This document shows, in pieces, positions 1 to 15,762 of a stretch of 64,000 nt of DNA; the stretch's first letter is position 1; each line of letters starts with the position of its first letter. Source of the DNA: a virus; IMG/VR virus record IMGVR_UViG_3300042566_000678, positions 62,001 through 126,000 of that record. The stretch is one strand, 5' to 3'. The notes below the pieces were generated by a model. That model did not search any database, had not been told where the DNA came from, and saw only the letters and a program-made list of their open reading frames with translations. A program made the translations under genes and the position numbers.

Positions 1-302
1 GATTGGATAAACGAATCTCTATCCTTTAATCCATTGGCACTTATCCCACCACTATCAAACTTCTTTTGATTTAAATAAATTATATACCTATATTGGTTCT
101 TATAATCCTTATCAAACTCCCTACCAATAAGTATCTTACCTATGTTATTGCCTCCCAACTCAAATCCAATTGAATAGTATTCAGGTTCTAAAATGGTCAA
201 ATCGGCATCATCGTATAAATGGACACCTTCGCTTACAAGATTAATCATCCACCCATTACAACGTATCCCTTCTAATGACCTAAAGTTTTTAATTGTTAGC
301 AT
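1..302 (-). CDS. MLTI-family small protein (3' end outside window)
   Basis: The first 100 codons of a gene that runs off the left edge; no stop is met. It opens MLTIKNF and starts one base after the stop of the gene at 304-627. It belongs to a family seen only by comparison within this window and here called MLTI: about 100-130 residues, opening M-L-T-I-x-N followed by a hydrophobic or aromatic residue and often K, an aromatic-rich mixed alpha/beta body and a helical C-terminus. No catalytic motif, signal peptide or membrane segment is visible. Function unknown. Confidence 0.75.
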   Translation of the reverse strand, partial: MLTIKNFRSLEGIRCNGWMINLVSEGVHLYDDADLTILEPEYYSIGFELGGNNIGKILIGREFDKDYKNQYRYIIYLNQKKFDSGGISANGLKDRDSFIQ

Positions 303-303
303 G

Positions 304-627
304 TTATGTATGTTTATTAACTTGTTTATTAACTATTTTGCATAGAAATTCAATCATCATATTCATATCTTTAATGTAATCGGCATCTACACAAAATCCG
401 ATTTTTTTATTTTCGTAATAAAAGAAGTATCTCCATTCACCATTACCCAATGATTCTAATCTTCTACTCAAATGAAATTCTTTTGTATCAATAATAGGTG
501 AATATGCAGGATTCTTTAAATGTATTGCATATGTATCCGCTTTCTCTATGCAAAATTCTACTCCCCACCCTCCGGTAAAATCTAAAAACCTTCCTTCTAA
601 TTTAGTGTAGTTTTGTATTGTTAGCAT
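304..627 (-). CDS. MLTI-family small protein
   Basis: 107 residues opening MLTIQNYTKLEG. The C-terminal third (FFYYENK...YIKDMNMMIEFL) resembles that of the gene at 1810-2106 (RFYDESRK...YIADMNNLLKAL), so the two are probably paralogues over their full length. The start sits in the context TAAGATATG, three bases after the stop of the GIY-YIG gene. Soluble; function unknown. Confidence 0.8.
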   Translation of the reverse strand: MLTIQNYTKLEGRFLDFTGGWGVEFCIEKADTYAIHLKNPAYSPIIDTKEFHLSRRLESLGNGEWRYFFYYENKKIGFCVDADYIKDMNMMIEFLCKIVNKQVNKHT

Positions 628-630
628 ATC

Positions 631-1107
631 TTATTTTTTAATAACAAACCACTCCGTACTACCCCAATTACCACTATACCTATTATGGTATCTATTTCCA
701 TCACGCCTCATTTCATCAAAATACCTAAACATTTTATTTTTGCTCAAAATCATTTTTTTAGTCCAACCATTAAAAATATCATTACCATATACTCGTTTAA
801 GTAGTTTAGTAGTATCATCAAACTTTTTTGGAAATGGGAACTCATCATTAACTACATACCTATTCTTAAATGAATACCCACATATACCTTTTATGGACAA
901 AACACATTTTTCTTCTTCTATTAGCATATCCGTAATAGATGCGTTTTTATCAAATAACTTAAAACTGACTATCTCCAAATTTTTGTAGTTGGGAAATTGC
1001 TTTAATCTTTTGTAAACGTTATAAGAATACCCAATTTTACATAGTTCGTATTTAGGAAACATTGAACCAAACTTTTTATCTCTAATATAATAAACACCAG
1101 TACTCAT
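631..1107 (-). CDS. GIY-YIG / T5orf172-like nuclease-domain protein
   Basis: 158 residues. The N-terminal half has the layout of the GIY-YIG superfamily (T5orf172/MUG113 type): GVYYIRD at residues 4-10, CKIGYSYNVYKRLKQF at about 23-38, and a conserved acidic EEEK near 65. The C-terminal part is basic and probably contacts DNA. Such genes in phages are often free-standing mobile endonucleases. The start overlaps a ten-codon leader that matches the beginning of an MLTI gene, suggesting this gene landed in or replaced an MLTI paralogue. The catalytic assignment is by pattern only and could be a non-cleaving DNA-binding relative. Confidence 0.6.
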   Translation of the reverse strand: MSTGVYYIRDKKFGSMFPKYELCKIGYSYNVYKRLKQFPNYKNLEIVSFKLFDKNASITDMLIEEEKCVLSIKGICGYSFKNRYVVNDEFPFPKKFDDTTKLLKRVYGNDIFNGWTKKMILSKNKMFRYFDEMRRDGNRYHNRYSGNWGSTEWFVIKK

Positions 1108-1136
1108 ATCTTATTGTAGTTTTCTATGGTTAGCAT
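1104..1136 (-). pseudogene. MLTI-gene remnant / leader peptide upstream of the GIY-YIG gene
   Basis: An 11-codon reading frame encoding MLTIENYNKI and a TGA stop. Its ATG lies at 1134-1136, overlapping the stop of the gene at 1130-1462, and its TGA overlaps the ATG of the GIY-YIG gene in the form ATGA. The peptide is exactly the opening of an MLTI-family protein, so this is either the stub left by replacement of the rest of that gene or a retained translation-initiation leader that couples translation of the nuclease. Confidence 0.5.
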
Positions 1137-1462
1137 AATTTTGGTAAAAGTCTAGATGAAATCCATTCTAATAAATGAATAGGGTCTTTTAAGTATTGAC
1201 AATGAATCCTATATCTTCTATTTGTTAATGATAGGCAATCTATTTGGTACTCAAATCCATTATCCATTAGCTGTCTCCATACCCATATATACTCAACCTT
1301 TTTTATGTTATATACTCTATTACCTTCATCTGGCATCAACGAAAGTTTATAGAACTCTGGTTGCTCATCTATGGATGCAACTATCCATTTGGTTATTCCA
1401 CCCGGTGAAAACGATTGGGTTTCCATACCCCTTATCTTATCGTAGTTTTTTATGGTTAGCAT
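1130..1462 (-). CDS. MLTI-family small protein
   Basis: 110 residues opening MLTIKNYDKIRGME. Same family and arrangement as its neighbours: an N-terminal MLTI block, a beta-rich middle with paired tryptophan and tyrosine residues and a short C-terminal helix (LLEWISSRLLPKL). Two bases separate it from the upstream MLTI gene at 1464. Function unknown. Confidence 0.8.
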   Translation of the reverse strand: MLTIKNYDKIRGMETQSFSPGGITKWIVASIDEQPEFYKLSLMPDEGNRVYNIKKVEYIWVWRQLMDNGFEYQIDCLSLTNRRYRIHCQYLKDPIHLLEWISSRLLPKLC

Positions 1463-1463
1463 A

Positions 1464-1808
1464 TTACTTATATTCTTCCATAGTTTTAAGCATAAGTGAA
1501 TAGAAATCCACTTTCTTTTTTAGTAGGATTCTTCCAACTTTAGTTTCAACTACAAACCCATCTCTATTTGTACCCGGCGTTGCCAGTTTAGTATCGTAAA
1601 GTCGTAAACGATATATGGATTGTTGGTAACTCGCCGGTACTCTATCCAAAAGAAACTTAAAACGTCGGGGTATCCCATAGGCATTCCAATAGAATGAATA
1701 ATACTCTCCATCACCATTTGGTTTTACAGAAGATAACCCGCCATCGCATAATGTGTACTCACCTATGGTCAGACCTATATCTTTTCTTACGTTTTGTATT
1801 GTTAGCAT
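1464..1808 (-). CDS. MLTI-family small protein
   Basis: 114 residues opening MLTIQNVRKDIG. It resembles the gene at 2108-2497 more closely than the others: both have a DGEYYSFYW or NYDYYAFYW segment, an RRFKF/SRFKC-FLxR segment, an IYxxRLYD/IYNFKIYD segment and a closing FYxxM. The two are therefore probably a recent duplication separated by one other paralogue. Function unknown. Confidence 0.8.
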   Translation of the reverse strand: MLTIQNVRKDIGLTIGEYTLCDGGLSSVKPNGDGEYYSFYWNAYGIPRRFKFLLDRVPASYQQSIYRLRLYDTKLATPGTNRDGFVVETKVGRILLKKKVDFYSLMLKTMEEYK

Positions 1809-1809
1809 A

Positions 1810-2106
1810 TTAAAAATGAAAAGTAAATTTGTCTAATGCTTTTAGTAGATTGTTCATATCTGCTATATAATCTATGGTTACACTTTGGTTGGTAGCTTTG
1901 CGAGATTCATCGTAGAATCTATATACAAACCTATCACCAATGTGTAAGGTCTTCTTTCTTTGTAGATAAACCTTTATAGATGATAAATGTTTGTGTTCTA
2001 ATTTAATCTCATAGAAATTAGAGTCTTCCCCACAATACTCAACTTTCCAACCCGATTGTCCTATGGGTTTGTCACATAATAGATAATAATTTTGTATCTT
2101 TAGCAT
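1810..2106 (-). CDS. MLTI-family small protein
   Basis: 98 residues opening MLKIQNYYLLCDK, the only copy in this block with lysine as third residue. It shares its C-terminal FYDESRK...DYIADMNNLLKALDKF layout with the gene at 304-627. One base separates it from each flanking gene. Function unknown. Confidence 0.8.
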   Translation of the reverse strand: MLKIQNYYLLCDKPIGQSGWKVEYCGEDSNFYEIKLEHKHLSSIKVYLQRKKTLHIGDRFVYRFYDESRKATNQSVTIDYIADMNNLLKALDKFTFHF

Positions 2107-2107
2107 A

Positions 2108-2497
2108 TTACATAAACATTATTATTTTATTTGTCATCCAAGTATAAAATCCAATTCTATCTTTTAGGTGTGTACGTGTACCCACAGATGTTTCATAAAT
2201 TAAACCCTCCCTGCCACTATGAGTGAAACCTTTTTGCTCGTCGTAAATCTTAAAGTTGTATATGGATGTTGTACCTACTATTGGGTTTCTTTCCAAAAAG
2301 CATTTGAACCTACTACGCCAAATCCTGCTCCTTCCATCGTTGTAACTCCAATAGAATGCGTAATAATCATAGTTACCCGAAATACCCGTTACTTCATCAG
2401 GTCGATTGTACAAACCTGCATTTACTAATTTGAATGAACCTATCACCATTCCAACATCTGGGTCTGCACCTTTTGTTTGGTTTTGTATTGTTAGCAT
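2108..2497 (-). CDS. MLTI-family small protein
   Basis: 129 residues opening MLTIQNQTKG, close to the gene at 1464-1808 (shared YYAFYW, FKCFLER, YNFKIYDE and FYTWM segments). Start in the context TAAGATATG, three bases after the preceding stop. This is the most upstream MLTI gene of the left-hand array, presumably transcribed from the promoter at 2875-2905 or read through from further upstream. Function unknown. Confidence 0.8.
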   Translation of the reverse strand: MLTIQNQTKGADPDVGMVIGSFKLVNAGLYNRPDEVTGISGNYDYYAFYWSYNDGRSRIWRSRFKCFLERNPIVGTTSIYNFKIYDEQKGFTHSGREGLIYETSVGTRTHLKDRIGFYTWMTNKIIMFM

Positions 2498-2500
2498 ATC

Positions 2501-2848
2501 TTATTTGTGACCAAAGTATTTGTGAAAATCTTCTAATTTAGCTATCATCCAACTATTGAACGCGGCGAATGATAGGAATTGGGATGTACGGACGAAATCA
2601 AAAGCTGGGAGTGTGGTGTGGAATATTTCTCCTACGCCGCTTGTAGCTACCTTAACCGTATAGAATTGTTTCTCCCAATTGAACTCCATTAGGATTACAT
2701 TACGAGAACTAGGATTTTGTGGGTATATCCATACTTGATTACCTATACTACCATCTGCTGATAATTTATATACATAATCACCAGGAAATGGACCTGTTTT
2801 GATTATATGTCCATCAACCTTTTGTGCGAAATTTTGTGGTGCTTTCAT
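2501..2848 (-). CDS. hypothetical protein, first gene behind an early-type promoter
   Basis: 115 residues from MKAPQNF. This start is preferred over an in-frame ATG at 2899 because the promoter -7 element (2875-2882) lies between them and the leader motif TTAAATATAAA immediately precedes 2848. The product is beta-rich and soluble, ending in a helix with several aromatic residues (FNSWMIAKLEDFHKYFG), which loosely recalls MLTI C-termini although the M-L-T-I opening is absent. Function unknown. Confidence 0.7.
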   Translation of the reverse strand: MKAPQNFAQKVDGHIIKTGPFPGDYVYKLSADGSIGNQVWIYPQNPSSRNVILMEFNWEKQFYTVKVATSGVGEIFHTTLPAFDFVRTSQFLSFAAFNSWMIAKLEDFHKYFGHK

Positions 2849-2874
2849 ATGATTTATATTTAACTGATGTTTAA

Positions 2875-2905
2875 CAAAGGTAAGTAAAAAAATCCACAAT
2901 TCCTA
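2875..2905 (-). promoter_or_regulatory. Bacteroidota-type promoter, TAG variant of the -33 box
   Basis: -7 element TACCTTTG at 2875-2882, 20-base spacer, and TAG instead of TTG at -33. The upstream block AATAATTAAGTAAAAATTAG matches the A-tract block of the stronger copies. Reads into 2501-2848. Confidence 0.6.
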
Positions 2906-2934
2906 ATTTTTACTTAATTATTTAATATCCAAAC

Positions 2935-3180
2935 TCATTCTTCATCGAAATCGTATCGTTTGTAGAATTTTTCATAGTTTTCTTTAGGTTCTTTGGGTTT
3001 CGATTCCACCACCAACACATCACTACACTCCACCACCTTAATCTTTACATCTTTGTAGTATGGTGATGATTGTCGTAACACTCTTTTTGCTTCATTCACA
3101 CCCGAAGCAACCACATAACGTTCATACATTATGTAACCATGTCGGTTAATCAAGTGGAATTTATATAGTGTTGGTTTCAT
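2935..3180 (-). CDS. hypothetical small charged protein
   Basis: 81 residues. The N-terminal two thirds look like a small beta-alpha-beta domain (LYKFHLINRHGYIMYERYVVASGVNEAKRVL), followed by an acidic and lysine-rich tail (KEPKENYEKFYKRYDFDEE). No known motif. It starts in the TAAGATATG context three bases after the stop of the membrane-protein gene at 3184. Function unknown. Confidence 0.65.
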   Translation of the reverse strand: MKPTLYKFHLINRHGYIMYERYVVASGVNEAKRVLRQSSPYYKDVKIKVVECSDVLVVESKPKEPKENYEKFYKRYDFDEE

Positions 3181-3183
3181 ATC

Positions 3184-3420
3184 TTATTTACGATTTAATT
3201 TACTAATACGATGCCATCTTTTGATGAACCAATACATATGGACCAATAGTACCATAACGTTGACGATGATAGTAGGATTGTTTTGGATTAAGAACCCATA
3301 CCACACCCACACTAAACAGGCGAAGAGATTGACCATCCTTACCAACTTTTGTTTGGAAAAGGCAAAGGATAGAACGGACATCCCCATAGCAAAGTAACCA
3401 ACTAATTCTAATGTATTCAT
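3184..3420 (-). CDS. small inner-membrane protein, YgjV/SemiSWEET-like
   Basis: 78 residues with three hydrophobic segments (about 5-20, 29-46 and 50-66) and a basic C-terminal tail (KRWHRISKLNRK). The pattern LVGYFAMGMSVLSFAFSKQK, then R-x-x-N-L-F-A, then a glycine and a buried asparagine, resembles small YgjV or SemiSWEET-like inner-membrane proteins. A transport role is not proven. Start in AAAAGATATG context. Together with its neighbours it forms a run of very short genes typical of phage early regions. Confidence 0.6.
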   Translation of the reverse strand: MNTLELVGYFAMGMSVLSFAFSKQKLVRMVNLFACLVWVWYGFLIQNNPTIIVNVMVLLVHMYWFIKRWHRISKLNRK

Positions 3421-3425
3421 ATCTT

Positions 3426-3578
3426 TTATATATTTGCGATTTCAATAAACTTATTTGTAGGGTACTCATCGGCTTCTTTATGAGCCATCTTCCATGCGGT
3501 AGATATATCCTCCGTAGTGTATATCCTTTCAAACTTAAACTTACCACTAATGTAAAATCTAAACTTATATTCGTTCAT
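3426..3578 (-). CDS. hypothetical 50-residue protein
   Basis: A 51-codon frame, MNEYKFRFYISGKFKFERIY... ending EIANI, starting at 3578 in AAAAGATATG context and filling the space between 3420 and 3584. Strand exchange is suggested by alternating aromatic and charged residues, then a helix (DISTAWKMAHKEADEYP). It resembles 2935-3180 in layout (short strands, then a helix with an alanine-rich face), but I cannot assign a family. Confidence 0.6.
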   Translation of the reverse strand: MNEYKFRFYISGKFKFERIYTTEDISTAWKMAHKEADEYPTNKFIEIANI

Positions 3579-3583
3579 ATCTT

Positions 3584-3835
3584 TTATCTTCCTATTTGAA
3601 AATCAATGTAATCCGATATTGCCATTGAGTTCCTAACGTTAATCCGTTTTTGAATCAACTCCATAGCTTCTTCGTATCTATCATACGAAACCACACCTTC
3701 ATTTATATAGTATTCGGAATTGGCTCGTTTAGGTGTTATACCCAATTGTTCTGCTCTCGCTTCGATGAACTCAACGTAACGTTCTAAAGAAAGTCGTTTA
3801 ATCGTTGATGGTTTTAAATCTAATATCCTTTTCAT
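3584..3835 (-). CDS. hypothetical protein, paralogue of 5445-5660
   Basis: 83 residues, all helical in appearance. It shares with the gene at 5445-5660 the pattern YVxFIEAxA, then G-x-T/S-P, an N-x-x-Y/D-Y segment, then GVVSYDRYEEAM. Two paralogues within 2 kb, both in the promoter-rich early-type region. No motif of known function; a small host-takeover factor is one possibility. Confidence 0.7.
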   Translation of the reverse strand: MKRILDLKPSTIKRLSLERYVEFIEARAEQLGITPKRANSEYYINEGVVSYDRYEEAMELIQKRINVRNSMAISDYIDFQIGR

Positions 3836-3847
3836 ATCTCTTATCTT

Positions 3848-4069
3848 TTATAGGTCGTAAATCTCTTCTAACTTACCATTGTAGTAGGCAACAAACAAAC
3901 CATACTCACCTACCTCAACGTTGTAATACCCATCGTTGTAATCCATCAAACTTACATCCAACCAACTTGTGTGGATACCATTCAGTTCACATAGGGTTTC
4001 GAACTCAACTGCGTTAATAGTGGGTGCAATTGCAATCAACTCTTTCTTCGTAATCTTTGTAGCTTTCAT
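3848..4069 (-). CDS. hypothetical small acidic protein
   Basis: 73 residues: a basic N-terminal stretch (MKATKITKKEL) followed by an acidic, tyrosine-rich body (DYNDGYYNVEVGEYGLFVAYYNGKLEEIYDL) that looks like a small beta-sheet. No signal peptide or known motif. It lies in the run read from the promoter at 4414-4444. Function unknown. Confidence 0.65.
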   Translation of the reverse strand: MKATKITKKELIAIAPTINAVEFETLCELNGIHTSWLDVSLMDYNDGYYNVEVGEYGLFVAYYNGKLEEIYDL

Positions 4070-4088
4070 AATATAAGGGGTTTAAGGA

Positions 4089-4376
4089 TTAACAATTAAC
4101 TCTGGCTTCAGAAGCCCAATCTTCATTAACTAAATACCAATACTTCTCTCTCATATGGATAATGTCGTAACCACCACCATTCTCCTCAATACTAACAATA
4201 CCTTTCTTAACCAAAGAACCTAACACACCACGAAGGACCTTTGTAGAGATTTCTAACTCCTTACTCAAATCATTCACATCCACATCGGAAAAGCCAGGTT
4301 CGGCATACAAACCACCAATAAAGGCAGTTAAGGTAAGTGATTCTAATTCCGTTAAATTCAATTCTAAATAGTTCAT
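4089..4376 (-). CDS. winged-helix DNA-binding protein (putative regulator)
   Basis: 95 residues from MNYLELNLTELESLT. Residues about 30-75 form a winged helix: helix DVNDLSKELEI, turn, recognition helix STKVLRGVLGSLVKKGIV, and a wing SIEENGGGYDIIH. This is the MarR/ArsR-type arrangement used by small transcription regulators. The start at 4376 is chosen because an in-frame ATG at 4406 lies almost at the transcription start predicted from the promoter at 4414-4444, and the leader box TTTAAACATAAAGATATG leads directly to 4376. It probably represses or activates phage early genes; the target is unknown. Confidence 0.7.
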   Translation of the reverse strand: MNYLELNLTELESLTLTAFIGGLYAEPGFSDVDVNDLSKELEISTKVLRGVLGSLVKKGIVSIEENGGGYDIIHMREKYWYLVNEDWASEARVNC

Positions 4377-4413
4377 ATCTTTATGTTTAAATTGTTTCTC
4401 TCTCAATGTTTAG

Positions 4414-4444
4414 TAAAGGTAAGTAAAATATCTTACAATGTCAA
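4414..4444 (-). promoter_or_regulatory. early-type promoter with upstream A-tract block
   Basis: -7 element TACCTTTA at 4414-4421, 20-base spacer, TTG at 4442-4444 within CTTGACATTGTAAGA. The upstream AATAATTAAGAAAAGAC block is shared with the copies at 4834, 5981, 55323 and 55644. Reads into 4089-4376. Confidence 0.8.
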
Positions 4445-4456
4445 GTCTTTTCTTAA

Positions 4457-4801: not shown

Positions 4802-4833
4802 ATTTTCGATGTTTATGTCTAACTGATGTTCTA

Positions 4834-4864
4834 TAAAGGTACGCAATAATAACCACAATGTCAA
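4834..4864 (-). promoter_or_regulatory. early-type promoter of the alpha-CTD gene
   Basis: -7 element TACCTTTA at 4834-4841, 20-base spacer, TTG at 4862-4864 in CTTGACATTGTGG, preceded by AATAATTAAGAAAAGA. A leader box GTTAGACATAAA follows before the start at 4801. Nearly identical to the promoter at 4414. Confidence 0.82.
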
Positions 4865-4894
4865 GTCTTTTCTTAATTATTTTTTCTTTTTGTC

Positions 4895-5155
4895 ATTTTT
4901 TTATACCTCCATATAGGATAGCAAAAAAGTAAATAGCGATAACCCTATTCAGACATACCCTTTGGGTATAATAGTATATTAAATAAGTCTAGCCCGAAAA
5001 CATGACCCCCGTATGAAAACGTACTCGGCTCGGGTCCGGCGGGTGCCTTTCGAGCGTGTTACGGGAAATGGAGAGTCTCCCTTAACGGTGAACGCCGGCG
5101 GCGCCGCCTCCACTCACCCACCGCACACACCCACGCTCTCATAGTTAGATGGTTA
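4895..5155 (-). ncRNA. GC-rich structured non-coding block, candidate ncRNA or 3' element
   Basis: No credible gene occupies 4865-5163. About 4985-5145 is strikingly GC-rich compared with the AT-rich flanks and holds several foldable segments: a GGCGGCGCCGCC palindrome near 5098-5109, GGAGA/TCTCC near 5070-5080, and a TACCC/GGGTA hairpin near 4958-4972. It lies 3' of the gene ending at 5164 and upstream of the promoter at 4834-4864, so it may be a 3' terminator-like RNA or an independent small RNA. Read on the minus strand it begins GAGAGCGTGGG, reminiscent of the G-rich 3' elements at 9.1 and 34.5 kb. Strand and ends are uncertain. Confidence 0.45.
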
Positions 5156-5163
5156 TCTAATTA

Positions 5164-5660: not shown

Positions 5661-5680
5661 AGTGTGTGTGGGTTTAAAGA

Positions 5681-5926: not shown

Positions 5927-5980
5927 AGTAGTATATTTTATGTTTAACTGAATGTCAGAAGCGTTTCCCCCAACGTTTAA

Positions 5981-6011
5981 TAAAGGTACGCAAAATATTT
6001 CACAATGTCAA
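5981..6011 (-). promoter_or_regulatory. early-type promoter with upstream A-tract block
   Basis: -7 element TACCTTTA at 5981-5988, 20-base spacer, TTG at 6009-6011 in CTTGACATTGTGAAATA, preceded by AATAATTTGGAAAAGA. Reads into 5681-5926. Confidence 0.8.
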
Positions 6012-6252
6012 GTCTTTTCCAAATTATTTTTAAAATAAATTAAAATTATTTCGTGAGCATATACACAGCATTCACACGTACTACCATACGGATGTAAAAA
6101 TATATCTTCAAAAAAAATTGTATTATTCTTATAAACTGATTTACATATGTAAACAACACGCGTGTGAATAGGTGGAATTGAGAGAATTTCTCGTACGCAC
6201 GAATGAAATGTGCGCTGAAATAATGCATAGGATTATTCCGTAATTAGTGATT

Positions 6253-6278
6253 TAACTAATTAGTTGTTTAACTAAATA
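6253..6278. repeat. 26-base direct repeat, copy 1
   Basis: TAACTAATTAGTT, three variable bases, then TAACTAAATA. Matches copy 2 (6430-6455) at 23 of 26 positions; the first half is itself palindromic (AACTAATTAGTT). Confidence 0.75.
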
Positions 6279-6429
6279 CCTAAATATGTGAAAGTGTGTA
6301 AAATAAATTCAGGATTCCTTGGTTTTTTGCTCACAAATGAATATGTACTTGGCGTCCTTCAGGTGCGTTGTACCCGTATAGGGGACAGTGGGTTTCTTTT
6401 GCTATTTCCTATTGTGTTAATTACCCGTC

Positions 6430-6455
6430 TAACTAATTAGTTAAATAACTAAATA
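6430..6455. repeat. 26-base direct repeat, copy 2
   Basis: Same as copy 1 except for the central three bases (AAA instead of GTT). Centre-to-centre distance 177 bases. Confidence 0.75.
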
Positions 6456-6563
6456 TCCATACCTCGTCAATAAGGGCTTTTATACACCTCTCGTATGTGA
6501 TTATATACCTATGATGATTTTAACACCTTATAGACGAGCAAAAGAATAGACTATGTGTAACGA

Positions 6564-7013
6564 TTAGTGAACGAAAGGGTGTTGGTTAGAATAGAGGTGT
6601 TTTCTTACCTTAACTACGGTTCCCGTTGATATTCCCTTCGATTTTCTTACCTTAACAATAGTTTTGGATGAAGCACCTAAAACCTCTACTATCTTTCTAA
6701 CGGAATATCCTTTCTCTAATAGGGTAATTATTTCTTTGGTTATGGGTTTATTCATAAAAGTTTCGGTAGATTCCATACTACCTACTCTTCTACCTGCTAC
6801 TCCCCCATTTTCAATCCATTTTTCCCTACCTAATTTTATTAACCTTTTCCACTCATTAGGGTTCTTATGTATCCCCACATCTTTACCATGCGCTTTACCA
6901 TGGCATACATTACATAGGGGTATAGTTTTAGTACCACCCAATGATTTAGGTATAATATGGTGTTGATGTATATGTTCACCACTACCACACTCAAAACATA
7001 TTTTAGTATCCAT
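6564..7013 (-). CDS. HNH endonuclease with C-terminal helix-turn-helix
   Basis: 149 residues. Residues 5-45 form a zinc-bound HNH motif: CFECG, then HQHHIIPKSLGG, then PLCNVCHGKAHG. Residues about 90-125 (ITKEIITLLEKGYSVRKIVEVLGASSKTIVKV) are a resolvase-like helix-turn-helix, and the segment VRKSKGIS...VVKVRK is a partial tandem duplication. This domain order is that of free-standing phage homing-type endonucleases. It lies inside the MLTI gene array, as the GIY-YIG gene does. Start is AT-ATG directly after the preceding stop. Confidence 0.85.
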   Translation of the reverse strand: MDTKICFECGSGEHIHQHHIIPKSLGGTKTIPLCNVCHGKAHGKDVGIHKNPNEWKRLIKLGREKWIENGGVAGRRVGSMESTETFMNKPITKEIITLLEKGYSVRKIVEVLGASSKTIVKVRKSKGISTGTVVKVRKHLYSNQHPFVH

Positions 7014-7015: not shown

Positions 7016-7369
7016 CTATTGTATTACTTGTCTCCCACCACTATGTATTTGATTAAATACCCTTCTTATATCCTTAAAATCTTCTACTCTTAAAAATTTA
7101 GTACATCCTCTTGCAAGGGGTACGTTTACATTCTTACAATAGATTTTTACATATTCATGTCCAGCGAAATCATTTGGGTCATACATTTGTTGTGTTTCCT
7201 TATAGATTTGTACTAATATCTTTATATCCTTTTGTTCCTTATCCTTTAAGACGTACTCATATATACCCCCAATTGGGTTATCTCCTACATAATGTATTTT
7301 CCAACTCGTTAAACTCTTTTCTACGAAATTTACTAGCCTATTAGGATTTTCTATGTTTATCCTTTTCAT
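7016..7369 (-). CDS. divergent MLTI-family protein
   Basis: 117 residues opening MKRINIENPNRLVNF, which aligns with M-x-L-T-I-x-N of the MLTI family. It shares the beta-rich body and final helix (VEDFKDIRRVFNQIHSG). Its start overlaps the stop of the next MLTI gene at 7366 by four bases (ATGA type). Function unknown. Confidence 0.65.
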   Translation of the reverse strand: MKRINIENPNRLVNFVEKSLTSWKIHYVGDNPIGGIYEYVLKDKEQKDIKILVQIYKETQQMYDPNDFAGHEYVKIYCKNVNVPLARGCTKFLRVEDFKDIRRVFNQIHSGGRQVIQ

Positions 7370-7725
7370 ATTATGTAACTATGAATTATTATATCCGTAA
7401 AATTTCCTAATGCTAATCCAAATTGATTCATATCCCTCAATACCCTACTACTCACCAATTGGGTTTCAAATCGGTTTGTATATGCACCTATCTCCCAACT
7501 CAACTCCCAATACCTTTCTTCAAAGTAAACACCTCTCGGTGGTTTTCTATCCAATACAATCCTTATCTCTTTTGAATCTACAAGAAATGTGGAATGGATT
7601 TGTAATTCAAACACATAGGTATTATTATTCATCCAATACACATCTTTTACTCTACATGTCCAATGGTGTGATTGTATAGGTACTTTCCTATCTACCATCT
7701 TATGTATGTTCTCTATCGTTAGCAT
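7366..7725 (-). CDS. MLTI-family small protein
   Basis: 119 residues opening MLTIENIHKMVDRK, 5 kb from the left-hand array but with the same first codons (ATGCTAACGAT). Middle part beta-rich with W and Y (YVFELQIHSTFLVDSKEIRIVLDRK), C-terminus helical. Function unknown. Confidence 0.78.
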   Translation of the reverse strand: MLTIENIHKMVDRKVPIQSHHWTCRVKDVYWMNNNTYVFELQIHSTFLVDSKEIRIVLDRKPPRGVYFEERYWELSWEIGAYTNRFETQLVSSRVLRDMNQFGLALGNFTDIIIHSYII

Positions 7726-7767: not shown

Positions 7768-8307
7768 CTAATCCTCATCCCATTCATAGTATCCCGTATA
7801 GACATCCAATAATTTCTTCTTAAATTTACTCACATCTTTTATATCATCTATGGATATGGTACTCCAATTATCACTATCATAATCCTCCAACCTATACAAT
7901 CCTTTTGAGTGTTCTTTTCTTTGTAGTTTAATATTCATCTCCGATGGACAATCCTCATATCTTCCACTAAAATCCCCATGTATAATAAATGTATATTCAT
8001 CCTTATCTTTATAGCATTTATGTATATTCGGCCATGGGTGATTACTATCATCATCCAATAGTTGATTTTCTAACTTACTAAAATTTTCGATATTTAACCT
8101 CATACCCTTTCTTTTAGGTTTAAGATTATACTCATCTAATAACTCATCTATAAGCTCTTTATCCTCATCAAATATATCTTCCCCATCAAAAAATACTTTC
8201 TTAACCCACCCATAGGTTTCTTCATCATCACCCTCTACCATTTGGATAATATCATTTATGGCGTTAGCCCATAGCATCTTTTGTACTTCTCTTTCCGTTG
8301 GTTTCAT
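7768..8307 (-). CDS. MLTI-domain protein with acidic N-terminal extension
   Basis: 179 residues. Residues 1-68 are an acidic helical domain (MKPTEREVQKMLWANAINDII...EDKELIDELLDEYNL); residues 69-179 begin MRLNIENFSKLEN and have the full layout of an MLTI protein. The second part could also be made separately from an in-frame ATG at 8103. This looks like an in-frame fusion of an unrelated small gene to an MLTI gene. Function unknown. Confidence 0.7.
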   Translation of the reverse strand: MKPTEREVQKMLWANAINDIIQMVEGDDEETYGWVKKVFFDGEDIFDEDKELIDELLDEYNLKPKRKGMRLNIENFSKLENQLLDDDSNHPWPNIHKCYKDKDEYTFIIHGDFSGRYEDCPSEMNIKLQRKEHSKGLYRLEDYDSDNWSTISIDDIKDVSKFKKKLLDVYTGYYEWDED

Positions 8308-8339: not shown

Positions 8340-8681
8340 TTATACCCCAATCTCCATCAACTGTCCTATTCTCTTCAATAGGGTATCCTTATCTCTTATA
8401 TCACTTGCCATCATATTCAACGTTTCTCCTCTACCATCTCTCAATGTGTATATTGGTGTGTGCGGCATTGAATCCCATATCCCCCCATGTCTAACCAATT
8501 GGACCTCACTCAACCCTACCATATCCTCATATTCGGTATGTAAATGAAAAGTATATAAATCCTTGTCCTCTACCACTCCGTTTATCACACATTTGAAAGC
8601 TCCATTCGGAAATTTTTGAGGTATTTCACACTTTACGATTTTATCCACATTATGGATTTTAATGGTCCTCGTCCCTATCAC
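8340..8681 (-). CDS. divergent MLTI-family protein
   Basis: 113 residues opening MIGTRTIKIHNVDKIVK; the TIKIHNVDKI part aligns with the MLTI opening. Beta-rich middle (DLYTFHLHTEYEDMVGLSEVQLVRHG) and C-terminal helix. Four-base overlap with the start of the membrane-protein gene upstream. Function unknown. Confidence 0.6.
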   Translation of the reverse strand: MIGTRTIKIHNVDKIVKCEIPQKFPNGAFKCVINGVVEDKDLYTFHLHTEYEDMVGLSEVQLVRHGGIWDSMPHTPIYTLRDGRGETLNMMASDIRDKDTLLKRIGQLMEIGV

Positions 8682-9143: not shown

Positions 9144-9731
9144 CTAAAATGGGTTATATGATGGGTTATGTTTTGTTGCTTGAATCATTGCTTTCTCATA
9201 CTGACTGAAAATATGCTCAACAAAAAATTCTTTACTCTTTAATACTTTTAGTGGTACTTTAGACCAGGAATACCCAACTGGTTGTTGTTTTTTATATACA
9301 GGTCTTACATCTTCATACCTTACCACCATCCTTACATACTTACCAATATTTTCATCCAATGGTGAGTCTTTATCCTCTTCTATTGGTTTGTATATCTTTA
9401 CAATACCACCACCTTGTGGCTTCGGACTTGAGAAACTCGGTAACAAATTAGATTGTTCTGTTATCGTATATGGGTAGTACTCTTCTTCAGGTGCCAATGT
9501 AGTGAATACAGAAGATGGTTTTAAAGATAGTGTTACACCATTTATCACCTTCCTTGCATTCAACTCCTTATAGTTATGCAGTTTGATATTCTTTACCCCT
9601 GGCTTATCTTTGATGTGGGCTTGGTATTGGTCAATTGCTTCCATTAGTTTTTGATTACTACTATCTATTTTGTGTGCTATTCTATCAAGTGTTATAGCAC
9701 GCATTATATCTGCGTATTCCATTGATTTCAT
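9144..9731 (-). CDS. hypothetical protein with an internal MLTI-like segment
   Basis: 195 residues. Residues 1-45 are helical; residues about 46-60 (VKNIKLHNYKELNARKV) resemble the MLTI opening; the centre is proline- and glycine-rich (SSPKPQGGGIVKIYKPIEEDKDSP), and the C-terminal part is basic. Last gene of its unit, followed by the G-rich 3' element. Start in AGATATG context. Function unknown. Confidence 0.65.
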   Translation of the reverse strand: MKSMEYADIMRAITLDRIAHKIDSSNQKLMEAIDQYQAHIKDKPGVKNIKLHNYKELNARKVINGVTLSLKPSSVFTTLAPEEEYYPYTITEQSNLLPSFSSPKPQGGGIVKIYKPIEEDKDSPLDENIGKYVRMVVRYEDVRPVYKKQQPVGYSWSKVPLKVLKSKEFFVEHIFSQYEKAMIQATKHNPSYNPF

Positions 9732-10246: not shown

Positions 10247-10248
10247 CT

Positions 10249-10752: not shown

Positions 10753-10765
10753 AACCTTTTTTTGT

Positions 10766-10849: not shown

Positions 10850-10850
10850 A

Positions 10851-11387
10851 TTATTTATGTTTTTTTAAGAAAAATACCAATGTCAATCTACTATTTTCTT
10901 TTGTATCCCCAAACGGATTTGTTGGTCCATGTAGTATATCGGCTGGATATATTACCATTGTATTATATACATTCTCTGCTTCACCAACCTTATTACCTTC
11001 ATCATCGAAAAATGATGTCCCACTATTTTTTGGTGGGTTAGGGGTTAAATACACTAAACCTACTATCCTAGAATCATTACTATCGTAGTGCTTTGATGCT
11101 TCCTCAAAGCTTTCAGTAGTAAAATTAGCTCTTACCTCCTCCGATGTTATATGGAAATACAATTCCATTTCACCATATTTAAAATTAGGTATTCTAAATG
11201 AAACTTCTTCAACTATCATTCTCTCTAAATCAACCCCAGCCACTACTCTGTTTGTGGGATTAACTCTCATACCCCGCCAACCTTGCGTTGGTGATGGACC
11301 ATCAAAATCCATATTTAAAGCACACTCTCTTATCTCATCTGGATTATCAAAGAAATTATCTATCTTATATACCTTTACTATTTCCAA
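10851..11387 (-). CDS. 2OG-Fe(II) oxygenase-fold protein (DUF6445-like)
   Basis: 178 residues. The double-stranded beta-helix core is marked by His100-Tyr-Asp102 (iron ligands), a proline-rich strand-turn GLVYLTPNPP, SGTSFFDD, distal His153 in ADILHGPTNPFG, and Arg167 for 2-oxoglutarate. Paralogous to the next gene (11365-11925). Expected to hydroxylate or otherwise oxidise a substrate with Fe(II), O2 and 2-oxoglutarate; the substrate is unknown. Lies downstream of a nucleotidylyltransferase gene, so small-molecule or polymer modification is possible. Confidence 0.72.
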   Translation of the reverse strand: MEIVKVYKIDNFFDNPDEIRECALNMDFDGPSPTQGWRGMRVNPTNRVVAGVDLERMIVEEVSFRIPNFKYGEMELYFHITSEEVRANFTTESFEEASKHYDSNDSRIVGLVYLTPNPPKNSGTSFFDDEGNKVGEAENVYNTMVIYPADILHGPTNPFGDTKENSRLTLVFFLKKHK

Positions 11388-11925
11388 TGATATTATTATC
11401 TTTTATTGATGCAAAAAATGTTAATGCTAATCTACTATCCTCATTGGTTTCACCAAATGGATTTGTGGGGGCGTGGATTATATCAGCAGGGTAAAATACA
11501 AATCTATTATACACATTTTCCACCTCTCCAATCTTTCTACTAACATCGTCAAAAAATGATGTACCACTATGCGGTGGGGGTTCTGGTGATAAATAAACTA
11601 CACCTGCAAAATGTATTACTTCGCTATCGGTGTGTGATTGTAGATAATCAAATTTATCACCCATATCTCCCCTTACACTTTCAGGTAATAAATGAAATAC
11701 CAATCTTAAATCAAAATCAGGTACATCTGGCAACCAACCTTTAACTTTATCTTTTATATAAGTTTCTATGTTAATTTCACCAATTTCAATATCCAAATCT
11801 TCGGTTCTTAAACCCAACCAGCTTTCATCCGTATCCGGCGTTCTATATGATTGAGCAAGAGCACATTCCCTAATTAAATTTGGGTTCTCAAAAAAATTAT
11901 CACATTGTAGTGCTCTTACTTGCAT
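11365..11925 (-). CDS. 2OG-Fe(II) oxygenase-fold protein (DUF6445-like), paralogue of the adjacent gene
   Basis: 186 residues from MQVRALQCDNFFENP. An in-frame ATG at 11949 exists, but the alignment with the sister gene (MEIVKVYKIDNFFDNP) puts the start at 11925. Core residues are conserved: H-T-D (H98, D100 in this numbering), VVYLSPEPPP, SGTSFFDD, ADIIHAPTNPFG (distal His) and a downstream Arg. The gene overlaps both neighbours by about 25 bases. Tandem duplication followed by clear divergence suggests two different substrates. Confidence 0.72.
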   Translation of the reverse strand: MQVRALQCDNFFENPNLIRECALAQSYRTPDTDESWLGLRTEDLDIEIGEINIETYIKDKVKGWLPDVPDFDLRLVFHLLPESVRGDMGDKFDYLQSHTDSEVIHFAGVVYLSPEPPPHSGTSFFDDVSRKIGEVENVYNRFVFYPADIIHAPTNPFGETNEDSRLALTFFASIKDNNIIGNSKGI

Positions 11926-12409
11926 ATTGTTCTCTAATTTTAGTTCCACTTATTTGTGCTATATCAGCTGGTGGTTCGTGGTATATTACATCGTACCCAA
12001 CACCTCTACCATAGTTTACTGAATCAATATCAGGTATGATTGAAACCATTATTCTATCTTTGTTTTTAATAAAAAATGTTTCATCTAGCAAATCTAGCCA
12101 CACCCTATGTGAAGTTTTAGGATTGTTTTCATCCGTAGGTACATCCCTAATAGCTACCCATACATTTTTTCCCTTTTCCAATTGTTGGTTTATTAGCCAC
12201 TCATGTCCTTCATGCCAATTTTGCCACCTACCGATAAATAAACTATACTTTAATTGTGTTTTAGGCATACAACGATATTTTGTAGTAGGTCCTTTGGGGG
12301 CTACATACACAAAATCATCATCGCCAATGGGCTCGAATTGTCTGAATGGTTTGTGTTCTTTCTCAAACTCATTTAAACGATTGTTTATATCCTCTAAATC
12401 AATTCCCAT
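11900..12409 (-). CDS. nucleotidylyltransferase-fold protein (cytidylyltransferase/NMNAT-like)
   Basis: 169 residues. SLFIGRWQNWHEGHEWLI at about 56-73 carries the HxGH signature (HEGH 66-69) of the nucleotidylyltransferase superfamily, and ISGTKIRE near the C-terminus matches its ISSTxIR motif. Such enzymes attach CMP or AMP to a phosphate-bearing substrate. The N-terminal 50 residues are an extra segment. It sits directly upstream of two oxygenase genes, overlapping the first. Possible roles are NAD metabolism or activation of a sugar or lipid head group; substrate cannot be told. Confidence 0.75.
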   Translation of the reverse strand: MGIDLEDINNRLNEFEKEHKPFRQFEPIGDDDFVYVAPKGPTTKYRCMPKTQLKYSLFIGRWQNWHEGHEWLINQQLEKGKNVWVAIRDVPTDENNPKTSHRVWLDLLDETFFIKNKDRIMVSIIPDIDSVNYGRGVGYDVIYHEPPADIAQISGTKIREQYASKSTTM

Positions 12410-12411
12410 AG

Positions 12412-12678
12412 TTATTCACCTAAATACTCTTTTCTATAATATGCCTCATCAAAATAATACAATCTATACTCTTCCAAATAATTTTGTAATTTACACAAAT
12501 CACACCCATCAATAGTCTTATCTTTGATGCTTGATTCACTATGTATAAAATCTAAATCATTTATTTTTTGGATGAATGATTTAGTGCTTTCAATACAATG
12601 TGGTTGTATTTCATCAAACTCTCTACTATGTAATGCTGCTATAAATTCCTTAAATGTATATTTTTTTTTAGCTTCCAT
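12412..12678 (-). CDS. hypothetical protein
   Basis: 88 residues from MEAKKKYTFKEFIAALH. The start at 12678 overlaps the stop of the upstream gene (TAGTATG); a longer frame to 12723 would overlap it by 44 bases. Contains a CDLC pair (DGCDLCKLQNYLEEY), which could bind a metal only with partners elsewhere. Function unknown. Confidence 0.6.
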   Translation of the reverse strand: MEAKKKYTFKEFIAALHSREFDEIQPHCIESTKSFIQKINDLDFIHSESSIKDKTIDGCDLCKLQNYLEEYRLYYFDEAYYRKEYLGE

Positions 12679-12679
12679 A

Positions 12680-12988
12680 CTATTTTTTTGATTTTTTCTT
12701 TGTTGCTTTTTTAATTGGTTCAACTACCACTTCATCCACTTGCTCTGTAATTTCCTTTGGTATATTTAACTGCTGAAAGATGTGTTCGTTTTCCTCACTT
12801 CTCTCCAAATTAACCAAATCGTAATCATCATCCTCTACCATACCCCACTCTGGTCTTTCCCATAGTTCTTTGACAAGATTCTTAATATCCTCTTCTTCAG
12901 GAGCACCTTCCCAAACACAAATGTGCTTTACCAATACTCTACCATCTTCCTGATTCTTTGTTGCAATCGTTGCGTATTTAACTTCCAT
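12680..12988 (-). CDS. hypothetical protein
   Basis: 102 residues: a beta-rich N-terminal half (KYATIATKNQEDGRVLVKHICVWEG), an acidic centre (VEDDDYDLVNLERSEENEHIF) and a lysine-rich tail (KKATKKKSKK). The basic tail suggests nucleic-acid contact. Function unknown. Confidence 0.6.
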   Translation of the reverse strand: MEVKYATIATKNQEDGRVLVKHICVWEGAPEEEDIKNLVKELWERPEWGMVEDDDYDLVNLERSEENEHIFQQLNIPKEITEQVDEVVVEPIKKATKKKSKK

Positions 12989-12990
12989 TT

Positions 12991-13143
12991 CTATATTGTT
13001 TTTAATAATTCTCTTAACTCTTTTACTCTCAATCTACCTTCTGCATATTGGTCATCATCGGATGCTCTGTGTCCGTTTAGGTTGGCAATCGTTATTTCAT
13101 ATTCTAACTTAACCAACTCCGATATTATATCATTAAAATCCAT
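12991..13143 (-). CDS. hypothetical 50-residue protein
   Basis: 51-codon frame MDFNDIISELVKLEYEITIANLNG... ending RVKELRELLKTI, filling the gap between flanking genes with two- and one-base spacers. Predicted as two helices joined by an acidic turn (HRASDDDQYAEGR). Function unknown. Confidence 0.6.
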   Translation of the reverse strand: MDFNDIISELVKLEYEITIANLNGHRASDDDQYAEGRLRVKELRELLKTI

Positions 13144-13144
13144 T

Positions 13145-13591
13145 CTATATTGTTATGTATTTTCGTTTTATTCTACCAGCACCTTTGTATCCTTTCTTAT
13201 ACTTTGGTTCATCTAAATTACTAATCTTCACACCTTCTGCTCTATTGGCAGCGTGTACTATTTGGTTATTACCTATGTATGTACCACAATGCCAACCCGA
13301 TGGTGATATTCTACTTCGAAAGAATACCAAATCACCAAAAGATAAACTATCTCTATCAACCCTATCGGTTTGTATCCATTGTGTTTGACAATTGTTACCC
13401 AATCTAATATCAAATACCTCCTTATATAGGCGTTTGTTGAATTGTGAACAATCTATACCTCTTTCAGTAACACCACCTAACCTATACGGCTTACCCACCC
13501 AATGCTCTATAAACCTATTCATAGTTGAATCAGTTGTTTGTGCAAAGGTAGGTAAACTTAATAATACAAATATACTAAATTTTTTCATCAT
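13145..13591 (-). CDS. exported NlpC/P60 peptidase
   Basis: 148 residues with signal peptide (MMKKFSIFVLLSLPTFAQ). The papain-like NlpC/P60 domain has Cys48 in GIDCSQF, His101 in GWHCGTYIGN and a third polar position at His113 (IVHAAN). These enzymes cleave the gamma-D-glutamyl-diamino acid bond in peptidoglycan stem peptides. Export by signal peptide implies action in the periplasm, as a lysis or wall-remodelling enzyme. Four-base overlap with the upstream lipoprotein gene. Confidence 0.85.
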   Translation of the reverse strand: MMKKFSIFVLLSLPTFAQTTDSTMNRFIEHWVGKPYRLGGVTERGIDCSQFNKRLYKEVFDIRLGNNCQTQWIQTDRVDRDSLSFGDLVFFRSRISPSGWHCGTYIGNNQIVHAANRAEGVKISNLDEPKYKKGYKGAGRIKRKYITI

Positions 13592-14208
13592 TCACAAATA
13601 AATCTTATCTTTCTTTCTATTGAATCCTTTTCAATCCTAACAAATAATTTTGATGTTGGTATCTCTTTTGTTATATGAGCCACAGCAGTAATGGTTATTG
13701 TATCTCCCTTCATATAGTATATTGGAGCAACCATAGTATTCACACTACCATCCGATGATGATGGATACGATGAACCATTTACCGTTGGAATTAATGAATT
13801 TGATTGAGACTTAAATGTACCCAATTCAGCTGTTGTCAGTTTTCCTGTAAATGTGTTAAAATAGGTTTTATATACTACGAATAAATTAGTTTTATTATTT
13901 AAAATCCAATAATGAGAACTTTTCCATTCTATTTTACAATCAACGGGTGATGGAATTGGATTTGGTTCACCATTCCACAAAAATTTTCCGGTGATACGGC
14001 TAAATGTTTGAAAAGTATTTTCTGATAATTTTAGATGATAGTATCCATTTATATCCTTTGGTAAACTCCTAGTACCAAATCTATTTAAAGCAGAATCCAA
14101 TTGGAATGTAAAATTGTATGCAGGTGGTTTAGGTACTATATATTGCGGCTCTTCGTAGCAAGATATTAATCCTAATAGTATCGGTAAAAATAATAGTAAC
14201 TTTTTCAT
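13588..14208 (-). CDS. lipoprotein
   Basis: 206 residues with lipoprotein signal peptide (MKKLLLFLPILLGLISC; lipidation at Cys17). Mature part begins YEEPQYIVPKPP and is beta-rich with serine/threonine patches. Translationally coupled (ATGA) with the NlpC/P60 gene downstream and an MLTI gene upstream. It could position or regulate the peptidase at the envelope, or be a spanin-like lysis component, but no spanin feature such as a coiled coil is clear. Confidence 0.7.
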   Translation of the reverse strand: MKKLLLFLPILLGLISCYEEPQYIVPKPPAYNFTFQLDSALNRFGTRSLPKDINGYYHLKLSENTFQTFSRITGKFLWNGEPNPIPSPVDCKIEWKSSHYWILNNKTNLFVVYKTYFNTFTGKLTTAELGTFKSQSNSLIPTVNGSSYPSSSDGSVNTMVAPIYYMKGDTITITAVAHITKEIPTSKLFVRIEKDSIERKIRFICE

Positions 14209-14552
14209 CGTTCATTTACAAAATCATCTAGCATCTCATTTAATGCCTTTATAATATTATCACTACTCTCTAATGCTTTCTTTTTTATACCCAAATCCTT
14301 TCGTTTAACCCGCCCATCATCAAAACGTTGTATGATATGGGTGTCATAAACTGGTGTTTTATCGTTTGGAAACTTTGGGTCTACATCGGTTCTTTTGTTT
14401 CTAGCTATTCCTATGTATATTGGTACATTATGAAACTCAAATGCATACTCTACGAATATCCTATATGCCAATTCGTTTTCTTCGATGCTTTGTATGTACA
14501 ACCTACCTTCGAAATACCCATTCAGTTTATCAAAATTACTTATGGTTAGCAT
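14205..14552 (-). CDS. MLTI-family small protein
   Basis: 115 residues opening MLTISNFDKLNGYFEG. Same fold layout as the left-hand array, ending in the helix DNIIKALNEMLDDFVNE. It overlaps the lipoprotein start by four bases and touches the next MLTI gene. Function unknown. Confidence 0.78.
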   Translation of the reverse strand: MLTISNFDKLNGYFEGRLYIQSIEENELAYRIFVEYAFEFHNVPIYIGIARNKRTDVDPKFPNDKTPVYDTHIIQRFDDGRVKRKDLGIKKKALESSDNIIKALNEMLDDFVNER

Positions 14553-14890
14553 TACAATTCCACCCCCCTTATAATTTCTTCAACACATTTTAATAGTATA
14601 TACCTATTTTCTATATGCTTTGTTCCTACAAACATTTCGTCCAAAGATACCCAATTATTTGATGCTTGCCATAGTTTTGTTTCTAAATGGTATCCGTGTC
14701 CATCAACTTTGTTTCTATTGAGTGATACCTCTATAACAGGAAATTCAGATGGATTTGGTTTATTATAGAAAGCTAATACATATGCTTCATCGGAAGAATA
14801 TGTTTCCGTTGCTGTCCACATACCAAAATCAAAATAAACAGTATTAAGTGGTTCTTCTAATTTATGAAAGTTCTTTATTGTTAGAGTCAT
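14552..14890 (-). CDS. MLTI-family small protein
   Basis: 112 residues opening MTLTIKNFHKLEEPL, i.e. the family opening with one extra residue. Body rich in W and Y (WTATETYSSDEAYVLAFYN), final helix RYILLKCVEEIIRG. The start lies inside the 3' end of the upstream oxygenase gene (29-base overlap). Function unknown. Confidence 0.76.
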   Translation of the reverse strand: MTLTIKNFHKLEEPLNTVYFDFGMWTATETYSSDEAYVLAFYNKPNPSEFPVIEVSLNRNKVDGHGYHLETKLWQASNNWVSLDEMFVGTKHIENRYILLKCVEEIIRGVEL

Positions 14891-15467
14891 ACATTTCTAA
14901 AACATAGTTTATTACTACTCTCCTATCTGATAATTTTGGTGTTGTTGATGTGTGAACTCGATTTGAATCAAATAATATACCAGTACCACCTTTTGGGGTT
15001 TGTCTATAAATTTCTTTTAGTTGGCTTATATTATGTTCGTTTCCATCTAAATATGTATCAAACAATATAGTATCACCATCCGAATCATTTACATAATAAA
15101 CAAATGATAATAGATTTGGTCCAGAATAATCTATATGAGGACCATTATAAAAATCATTTGGATACGAAGCATCGCCAACCATAAGGTTTGCTTTAATACG
15201 AATTACTTTTTTTATTTTACTACCAGCTTCCTTTTCAATTATTCCCAGCATTTCTGAAAAATAATGGTAATATATACTTTTTTGTTGCTTATCAATCAAT
15301 ATGGTATGCGTGAATTGTGGCATATCTTTGGTTTTTGAATCAACAACAGTACCATAATCTCCTTCAAGCAATGTTGCACCATTCCAATACCAATCAAACT
15401 CCGAACCAAGCATTAATTCTGCCAAAACATCGGCATATTCCTTATCTATTTCTATTCTTTTTACCAT
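14862..15467 (-). CDS. 2OG-Fe(II) oxygenase (prolyl-4-hydroxylase-like)
   Basis: 201 residues from MVKRIEIDKEY; an in-frame ATG at 15497 would overlap the upstream gene by 55 bases and adds an unrelated stretch. Iron ligands His111-x-Asp113 (GPHIDYSG) and His172 (RVHTSTTP), with Arg182/183 for 2-oxoglutarate, and the FVYYVNDSDGDTILFD strand pair typical of viral P4H-like enzymes. Close in layout to the enzyme at 31187-31768. Substrate unknown. Confidence 0.82.
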   Translation of the reverse strand: MVKRIEIDKEYADVLAELMLGSEFDWYWNGATLLEGDYGTVVDSKTKDMPQFTHTILIDKQQKSIYYHYFSEMLGIIEKEAGSKIKKVIRIKANLMVGDASYPNDFYNGPHIDYSGPNLLSFVYYVNDSDGDTILFDTYLDGNEHNISQLKEIYRQTPKGGTGILFDSNRVHTSTTPKLSDRRVVINYVLEMYDSNNKELS

Positions 15468-15762
15468 AATAATTTTCAAATAAATCCATAAATCCACTAA
15501 CTATGAAAGAAACATCGTTTGAGGTTTTAATGTGCGATGGTATAAATTGTGCAGTATCTTTATATTTTCCATAACTGAAATGGATTTCATAAAAATTACT
15601 ATGTTGATTTCTATATATCATTATATTACCACCTTTCTTTTTGTGGTTAAACATAATTTTATATACACCATCCAATACTAATACATGGGTAATAATAGAA
15701 CCCATATCGGTTTTTTTACCAATTAAGGTTTCAATCGTTGGAATTATCAGTTTCTTGCTCAT
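15442..15762 (-). CDS. hypothetical protein, possible distant MLTI relative
   Basis: 106 residues. KLIIPTIETLIGKKTD near the N-terminus, a beta-rich core (GVYKIMFNHKKKGGNIMIYRNQHSNFYEIHFSYGKY) and a C-terminal helix ending basic (ENYYGKKNRNR). The order strand-rich body then helix is like MLTI proteins but the opening differs. Overlaps both neighbours. Confidence 0.6.
   Translation of the reverse strand: MSKKLIIPTIETLIGKKTDMGSIITHVLVLDGVYKIMFNHKKKGGNIMIYRNQHSNFYEIHFSYGKYKDTAQFIPSHIKTSNDVSFIVSGFMDLFENYYGKKNRNR

Follow-up and report, generated by a model that had tools for sequence, protein, structure and literature searches.

The 64,000-nt window analyzed here (62 to 126 kb, bases 62,001 to 126,000, of a 148,235-base IMG/VR virus record) carries scattered tandem arrays of small genes, here called MLTI genes, whose products open with the residues MLTI or close variants of them. 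It is practically certain that these genes share common descent and form one homologous family. The single expanded family proposed in a preliminary description of the window was thus borne out, both by homology of the protein bodies once the start was removed and by the modeling of two subfamilies, whose structural elements follow one another in the same order. We lean toward the view that the family consists of small single-domain proteins (∼95 to 130 amino acids [aa]) held as arrays of interchangeable cassettes by large T4-like Bacteroidota phages.

All genes named here are on the minus strand, and the single coordinates used for them, as in the preliminary description, are those of their 3′ ends. 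The eight genes described as opening M-L-T-I/K-x-N were present at the places listed, with M-L-T/K-I-x-N at open reading frames (ORFs) 1, 304, 1130, 1464, 1810 (MLKIQN), 2108, 7366, and 14205, as was the MTLTIKN gene at 14552. The start sequence ATGCTAACNATANAAAAC, with at most two mismatches, occurred eight times in the window compared to 0.23 times expected, and no shuffle reached eight. In the whole record, the protein-level MLTI pattern was found nine times on the minus strand and never on the plus strand, always within 61.2 to 76.9 kb; one of the nine occurrences is a 10-codon remnant (1104 to 1136) and not a gene. An iterated profile united the nine obvious genes with three of the four diverged copies that had been proposed, those at 7016, 7768, and 8340. 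The fourth, at 9144, found no support (E = 3.4), and it also failed the body-only test described next.

Since a shared start alone could drive such profile matches, the first 14 to 15 residues were cut off and a profile trained solely on proteins of other phages was used. With this body-only profile, 11 members of this phage scored 16 to 51 bits, compared to 12.8 bits for the best of 3,000 shuffles. The body alone left 1464, 2108, 7016, and the member at record positions 58847 to 59221 below decision; for the 1464/2108 subfamily, the profile-profile probability against the family profile was 97.5% with the start included. The bodies differ strongly, as had been noted (16% identity at the pairwise median), yet they keep a common framework of M1, L2, I4, N6, W21, E28, Y33 (98%), L53, R/K55 (99%), and Y67 (96%), followed by a C-terminal helix. 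The two sub-pairs picked out earlier were also confirmed, with 33% identity for 304/1810 and 37% for 1464/2108.

Structure predictions gave no sign of unrelated folds. The AlphaFold2 model of the 304 protein (predicted local distance difference test [pLDDT] score, 92.9, or ∼93; predicted template modeling [pTM] score, 0.84) suggests an ordered N-terminal MLTIxN segment followed by a short helix, five antiparallel strands, and a C-terminal helix. The most divergent sub-pair, 1464/2108, was modeled independently from five sequences of its own with moderate confidence (pLDDT, 72; pTM, 0.69). Both models have the same order of five strands and a C-terminal helix, the comparison being one of element order and not of superposed models. 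Fold searches found nothing convincing among solved structures, with no Foldseek match below E = 0.001, and nothing below the same threshold among viral models, where the top matches were unnamed phage proteins of ∼110 aa. A resemblance to RWD-like and Csm1/Ctf19-Mcm21 domains lies in the arrangement of helix, antiparallel sheet, and helix and is a likeness of fold only. It is weak: the best Z score was 6.0 over 73 residues at 12% identity, values below 8 can reflect a mere common arrangement, and the second model does not recover it. On these models, the family proteins are not assigned to a known fold.

The fixed start is a nucleic acid element as well as a peptide, because its synonymous sites are conserved. 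The first 18 nt are kept as DNA (ATGCTAACAATAxAAAAC), and synonymous conservation at codons 2, 3, 4, and 6 is well above that at other early codons. Leu2 is encoded by CTA in 79% of members, whereas the share of CTA is 17% at the second codon of other genes and 10% overall. The CTA figure is inflated in some contigs, which were found by a pattern presetting CTN at codon 2; in a bias-free set (this phage and contig L015), 17 of 18 were CTA. Asn6 is AAC in 63% of members compared to 28%. The genes are joined tightly. Among 184 junctions, 51 have a 1-nt gap (TAATATG), 23 a 7-nt overlap (ATGCTAA), 12 a gap of 3 nt, and 11 a 1-nt overlap. The ATGCTAA overlap leaves many members with a C-terminal cysteine. 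The CTA preference does not come down to this overlap: outside that class, at least 94 of 129 Leu2 codons are CTA, even were all 23 overlap cases CTA. Because Bacteroidota seem to use no Shine-Dalgarno motifs for initiation or reinitiation (PMC6728339), a translation device consisting of a stop-start joint and a fixed context at the start is plausible.

Alignments of related contigs showed that entire cassettes were gained, lost, and replaced, and cassettes very probably turn over at the fixed start. For instance, contigs G018 and G021 differ by a 305-nt cassette with a 25-nt shared joint, and G011 and G016 differ by 752 nt (two genes) with a 21-nt joint. In G004 and G007, one zinc-ribbon-like N terminus leads into different MLTI domains, the switch being at the MLTI start. 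Homology ended 0 to 32 nt past a member start in 25 of 49 cases (51%; 9% expected) and resumed at −20 to +3 of a start in 36 of 49 (73%; 6% expected). For control genes in the same test, the values were 23% and 51% (Fisher P = 0.002 and 0.015 versus the arrays). The simplest agent to invoke is ordinary recombination of the phage between short homologies. Two known kinds of system were also considered. First, a diversity-generating retroelement would have its reverse transcriptase, and no RVT_1 match was found in the nine array-bearing records searched, some of them incomplete. Second, an integron-like cassette system would have its tyrosine recombinase, and the same records gave no Phage_integrase match. 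Neither system is therefore indicated. Homing endonucleases were rejected as drivers: GIY-YIG or HNH genes are found within or next to arrays here and in G005, but this is not systematic.

Compared to the close relative G017 (terminase 94% identical), the array orthologs are only 40 to 60% identical, with a high synonymous divergence (dS), whereas the median identity is 87% for size-matched other genes, and the genes directly downstream of the array range from 75 to 99%. Members of arrays 2 and 3 have no match in G017; this is uninformative and is not counted as loss, the corresponding stretch being beyond the end of the G017 contig. The 2108 gene is 83% identical to its counterpart in the more distant G001 (terminase 65% identical) and 60% identical to that in G017, which suggests an exchange of this gene between phage lineages. 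The median ratio of nonsynonymous to synonymous divergence (dN/dS) was 0.32 for array orthologs and 0.17 for size-matched genes (P = 4e-8; the genome pairs are not all independent). The family thus diverges faster than other genes of like size. Gene-wide diversifying selection, which the preliminary description had proposed testing for, was rejected: of the 63 ortholog pairs, all but one had a dN/dS below 1. Selection on the members is purifying but relaxed, and the variation seems to come from entire gene cassettes being replaced and turned over more than from point diversification.

The family is not confined to this phage. A search with one member found contigs of 133 and 207 kb with eight start elements each, and DNA-pattern searches (one start, or two starts one gene apart) gave many more contigs. 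The search of other phage genomes called for at the outset recovered the family in 22 IMG/VR records, this one included, with 3 to 33 members per record in the profile search; a second method counted 36 in the 101-kb contig G005. Across the fetched loci, there were 225 members. The MLTI domain also recurs after extensions of membrane-like, zinc-ribbon-like, or acidic character. An outlier group of ∼180 aa, MKIKGW[DE]KISG..YKGY.IVNP.HN (L099:12772-13413, L053:9533-10093, and G005:26206-26745), is conserved, is preceded in some cases by a zinc-ribbon-like N terminus, and is possibly a distant branch of the MLTI family. The suggestion that the family had not been described held up. When 129 members were compared to Pfam, PHROGs, and PADLOC, each family was matched by one member at most at E = 0.01; there was no match below E = 0.2 among the sequences of solved structures (PDB); and three members used as tblastn queries on 50,697 phage records gave nothing or noise at E = 1. 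The tandem pattern matched two contigs in cellular genomes, neither of which encodes a member. No description of the MLTI family was found in the literature.

The assignment of the phage comes from its terminase and its promoters. The terminase is of the T4 type and is 57 to 58% identical to that of Flavobacterium phage vB_FspM_immuto (Immutovirus), the nearest isolated relative by terminase, which has a T4-like gp20. Promoter patterns of the Bacteroidota type (TTTG, 19 to 24 nt, TANNTTTG) occur 17 times in the window compared to 4.5 times expected. On this sequence evidence, the phage is classed as T4-like, and its host is most likely a member of the Bacteroidota. Unlike this phage, immuto has no MLTI family member; the profile search found none in it or in Mel-JY01 and LR756508, the other relatives in the terminase lineage.

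How the arrays might work can be outlined as follows. The fixed start would act as a translational stop-start joint and, being a repeated short homology, also as the site where cassettes recombine; owing to this double role, an inserted cassette would still be translated. The products may be soluble adaptor or inhibitor domains, with the repertoire of each phage aimed at variable host targets, such as those of defense or takeover, and variable loops on the common framework could provide differing specificities. A host-directed binding function is a tentative proposal to which we give slightly less than an even chance; it is suggested because the proteins are small, single domain, strongly diversified, exchangeable, and sometimes fused behind extensions, traits that would fit target-binding modules. 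For an anti-defense or host-takeover role, gene turnover and position give indirect support, and the arms race with host factors and the binding scaffold of the preliminary description are likewise conjectural. More speculative is a recombinase-free cassette system in which the 18-nt coding start is both the stop-start translation joint and the recombination joint for a library of one binding-domain fold; we regard this as possible but doubtful. If it were true, domains of new specificity could enter an expressed array, or follow a fixed N-terminal module, in one step. If the cassette interpretation is right, the phage would swap small host-directed proteins by recombination at the start codon with no dedicated recombinase, and the arrays would be places to look for new anti-defense or host-takeover proteins. 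As it is, the more than 200 members from 22 records of uncultivated phages give many hypothetical phage proteins a single identity, that of a family with a confident predicted fold and with no counterpart in the libraries searched.

Besides the inflated CTA figure, several observations weigh against this interpretation. First, start-associated breakpoints are common outside the arrays too. Control genes show this tendency too, though more weakly; turnover of whole genes is therefore widespread in these phages, with the start element contributing on top of it. Second, any conserved start element lets an alignment continue through it, which blurs the exact crossover points, and indels in the arrays do not have significantly longer overlaps (P = 0.06). 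Third, some unrelated small genes directly upstream of array 1 have diverged from G017 to the same degree as members of the family (43 to 66% identity); therefore, the whole stretch is plastic and fast change is not specific to the family. Fourth, dN/dS below 1 speaks against an ongoing residue-level arms race across the whole gene. Fifth, none of the members comes with a function, target, or partner on record, and none is from a cultured phage. Finally, the Rnl1 RNA ligase and kinase that adjoin the array in this phage are near an array in only 5 of 20 contigs. Counter-defense inferred from this neighborhood was rejected as a general explanation; it holds here and in three relatives.

Three other explanations were weighed. 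The arrays could be near-neutral products of duplication, the start repeats expanding and contracting the region and most copies having no specific target. The copy number of 3 to 36, cassettes that are indels between repeats, the one remnant copy, and a dN/dS above that of the controls all fit this. However, a dN/dS of ∼0.3 means that copies are held intact by selection, this phage has one remnant compared to 14 or more intact members, and orthologous subfamilies last across phages whose terminases are just 65% identical, which makes near neutrality unlikely. Alternatively, the proteins could be subunits of a variable phage homo- or hetero-oligomer, such as a complex that is injected or sits inside the virion, with specialization of the subunits, rather than host targets, as the source of diversity. 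Tandem translation-coupled genes often encode the subunits of one complex (PMC10666635), and the common framework residues also count in favor of this explanation. We nonetheless consider this improbable, since member turnover and the wide range of copy numbers suit an obligate complex poorly, structural families were not matched, and the array in this phage is surrounded by clusters of small genes without known function and not by structural genes. The least probable explanation, that the conserved start is a mere translational or regulatory signal before unrelated small genes (e.g., one recognized by a phage translational regulator, in the manner of RegA on T4 start regions), accounts for the synonymous conservation and the tight stop-start junctions, but its "unrelated genes" part is largely refuted by bodies that are homologous without the start and have Y33, R/K55, and Y67 in common and by two divergent members with the same element order; a regulatory role of the start element may exist alongside homology.

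The cassette arrays resemble plastic small-gene regions known from T4-like phages. In such phages, small genes are shuffled modularly via promoter early stem-loops (PeSLs; Arbiol 2010 and Comeau 2014, cited in PMC4503421). The MLTI arrays share with them a T4-like phage, a plastic small-gene region, and a short conserved DNA element at the joints linked to shuffling. In contrast, PeSLs combine a promoter and a terminator and lie between genes, which may be unrelated, whereas in the MLTI arrays the element is a coding start, the joints are ∼1 nt or overlaps, and every cassette belongs to one family. No PeSL-type promoter and stem-loop terminator was found at each joint; the joints, mostly +1, −7, +3, or −1 nt, are too short to leave room for them, and one promoter-like element precedes the whole unit. 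The same source describes the "ORFanage" of the T4-like cyanophage S-PM2, a region of 33 orphan genes that was lost en bloc in the laboratory; its genes are described there as orphans and not as members of a single fixed-start family. What is new compared to known plastic small-gene regions is that all cassettes are of one family and that the joint is inside the coding start.

Array 1 is preceded by a promoter-like sequence and leader at 2850 to 2905 (TACCTTTG, of the Bacteroidota −7 type; leader TTAAACATCAGTTAAATATAAA), an element that also precedes the array of G017. The first gene of the transcription unit is the MKAPQNF gene at 2501 to 2848 (115 aa). It belongs to another family of small tandem genes, whose start is also nearly fixed (MK[AG]P.NF) and of which G001 has three tandem copies (27644 to 28627). 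Although their layout is alike, these genes were rejected as a branch of the MLTI family, to which they show no profile relation (profile-profile probability, 4.9%). Then follow the MLTI genes at 2108 to 2497 (129 aa), 1810 to 2106 (98 aa; related to 304 and found by the profile), 1464 to 1808 (114 aa), and 1130 to 1462 (110 aa; also a profile member). The last of these ends in LPKLC, its stop being the TAA within the ATGCTAA of the remnant (7-nt overlap). The remnant at 1104 to 1136 consists of the start element ATGCTAACCATAGAAAAC and 10 codons (MLTIENYNKI) followed by TGA, and its stop overlaps the ATG (ATGA) of a nonfamily gene at 631 to 1107. The latter (158 aa) weakly resembles T5orf172/MUG113 (GIY-YIG-like), under Pfam cutoffs, and AATAAGATATG is found at both borders of this gene. 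The MLTI gene at 304 to 627 (107 aa; body-only profile, E = 3e-15) is next, followed by that at 1 to 302 (MLTIKNFRSLEG...), which is cut by the window edge and is complete at record positions 61961 to 62302 (113 aa; body-only, 18.9 bits). Another full MLTI copy is just beyond the window at record positions 61191 to 61550.

Farther into the window, the diverged gene at 7016 to 7369 (MKRINIENPNRL; 117 aa) scored E = 3.5e-11 with the full profile after joining it and 6.4 bits with the body only. It overlaps by 4 nt the MLTI gene at 7366 to 7725 (119 aa; profile member). At 7768 to 8307 (179 aa), the family domain (MRLNIENFSKL) comes after a 68-aa acidic N-terminal extension (body-only, 35.7 bits), and at 8340 to 8681 is a diverged gene with a GTG start (TIKIHNVDKI; 113 aa; body-only, 22.4 bits). 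The profile members at 14205 to 14552 (115 aa) and 14552 to 14890 (MTLTIKN; 112 aa) overlap by 1 nt. Two members had not been listed previously: the weak member at 15442 to 15762, which lacks the MLTI start (MSKKLIIPTIETLIGKK; 106 aa; E = 1.9e-4; body-only, 16.0 bits compared to the shuffle maximum of 12.8), and the one at record positions 58847 to 59221.

Several minor features were also seen around the arrays. An HNH-type gene with a helix-turn-helix (6564 to 7013) is 2 nt from the 7016 member. A promoter-leader repeat, TTGACATTGTG...GCGTACCTTTA...CATCAGTTA, stands before small genes at 4828 to 4884, 5975 to 6031, and 2850 to 2905, with copies in G017 too. An Rfam search of window positions 1 to 20 kb gave no match, and no tRNA was found. 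At ∼4985 to 5140, a GC-rich patch with a GGCGCCGCC palindrome is inside an AT-rich gap, and the apparently noncoding segment at 6230 to 6460 has direct and inverted repeats of the TAATTAGTTAAATAACTAAATA type. Finally, the genes at 10851 to 11387 and 11365 to 11949 are similar, tandem, and overlapping, and the second weakly matches DUF6445.

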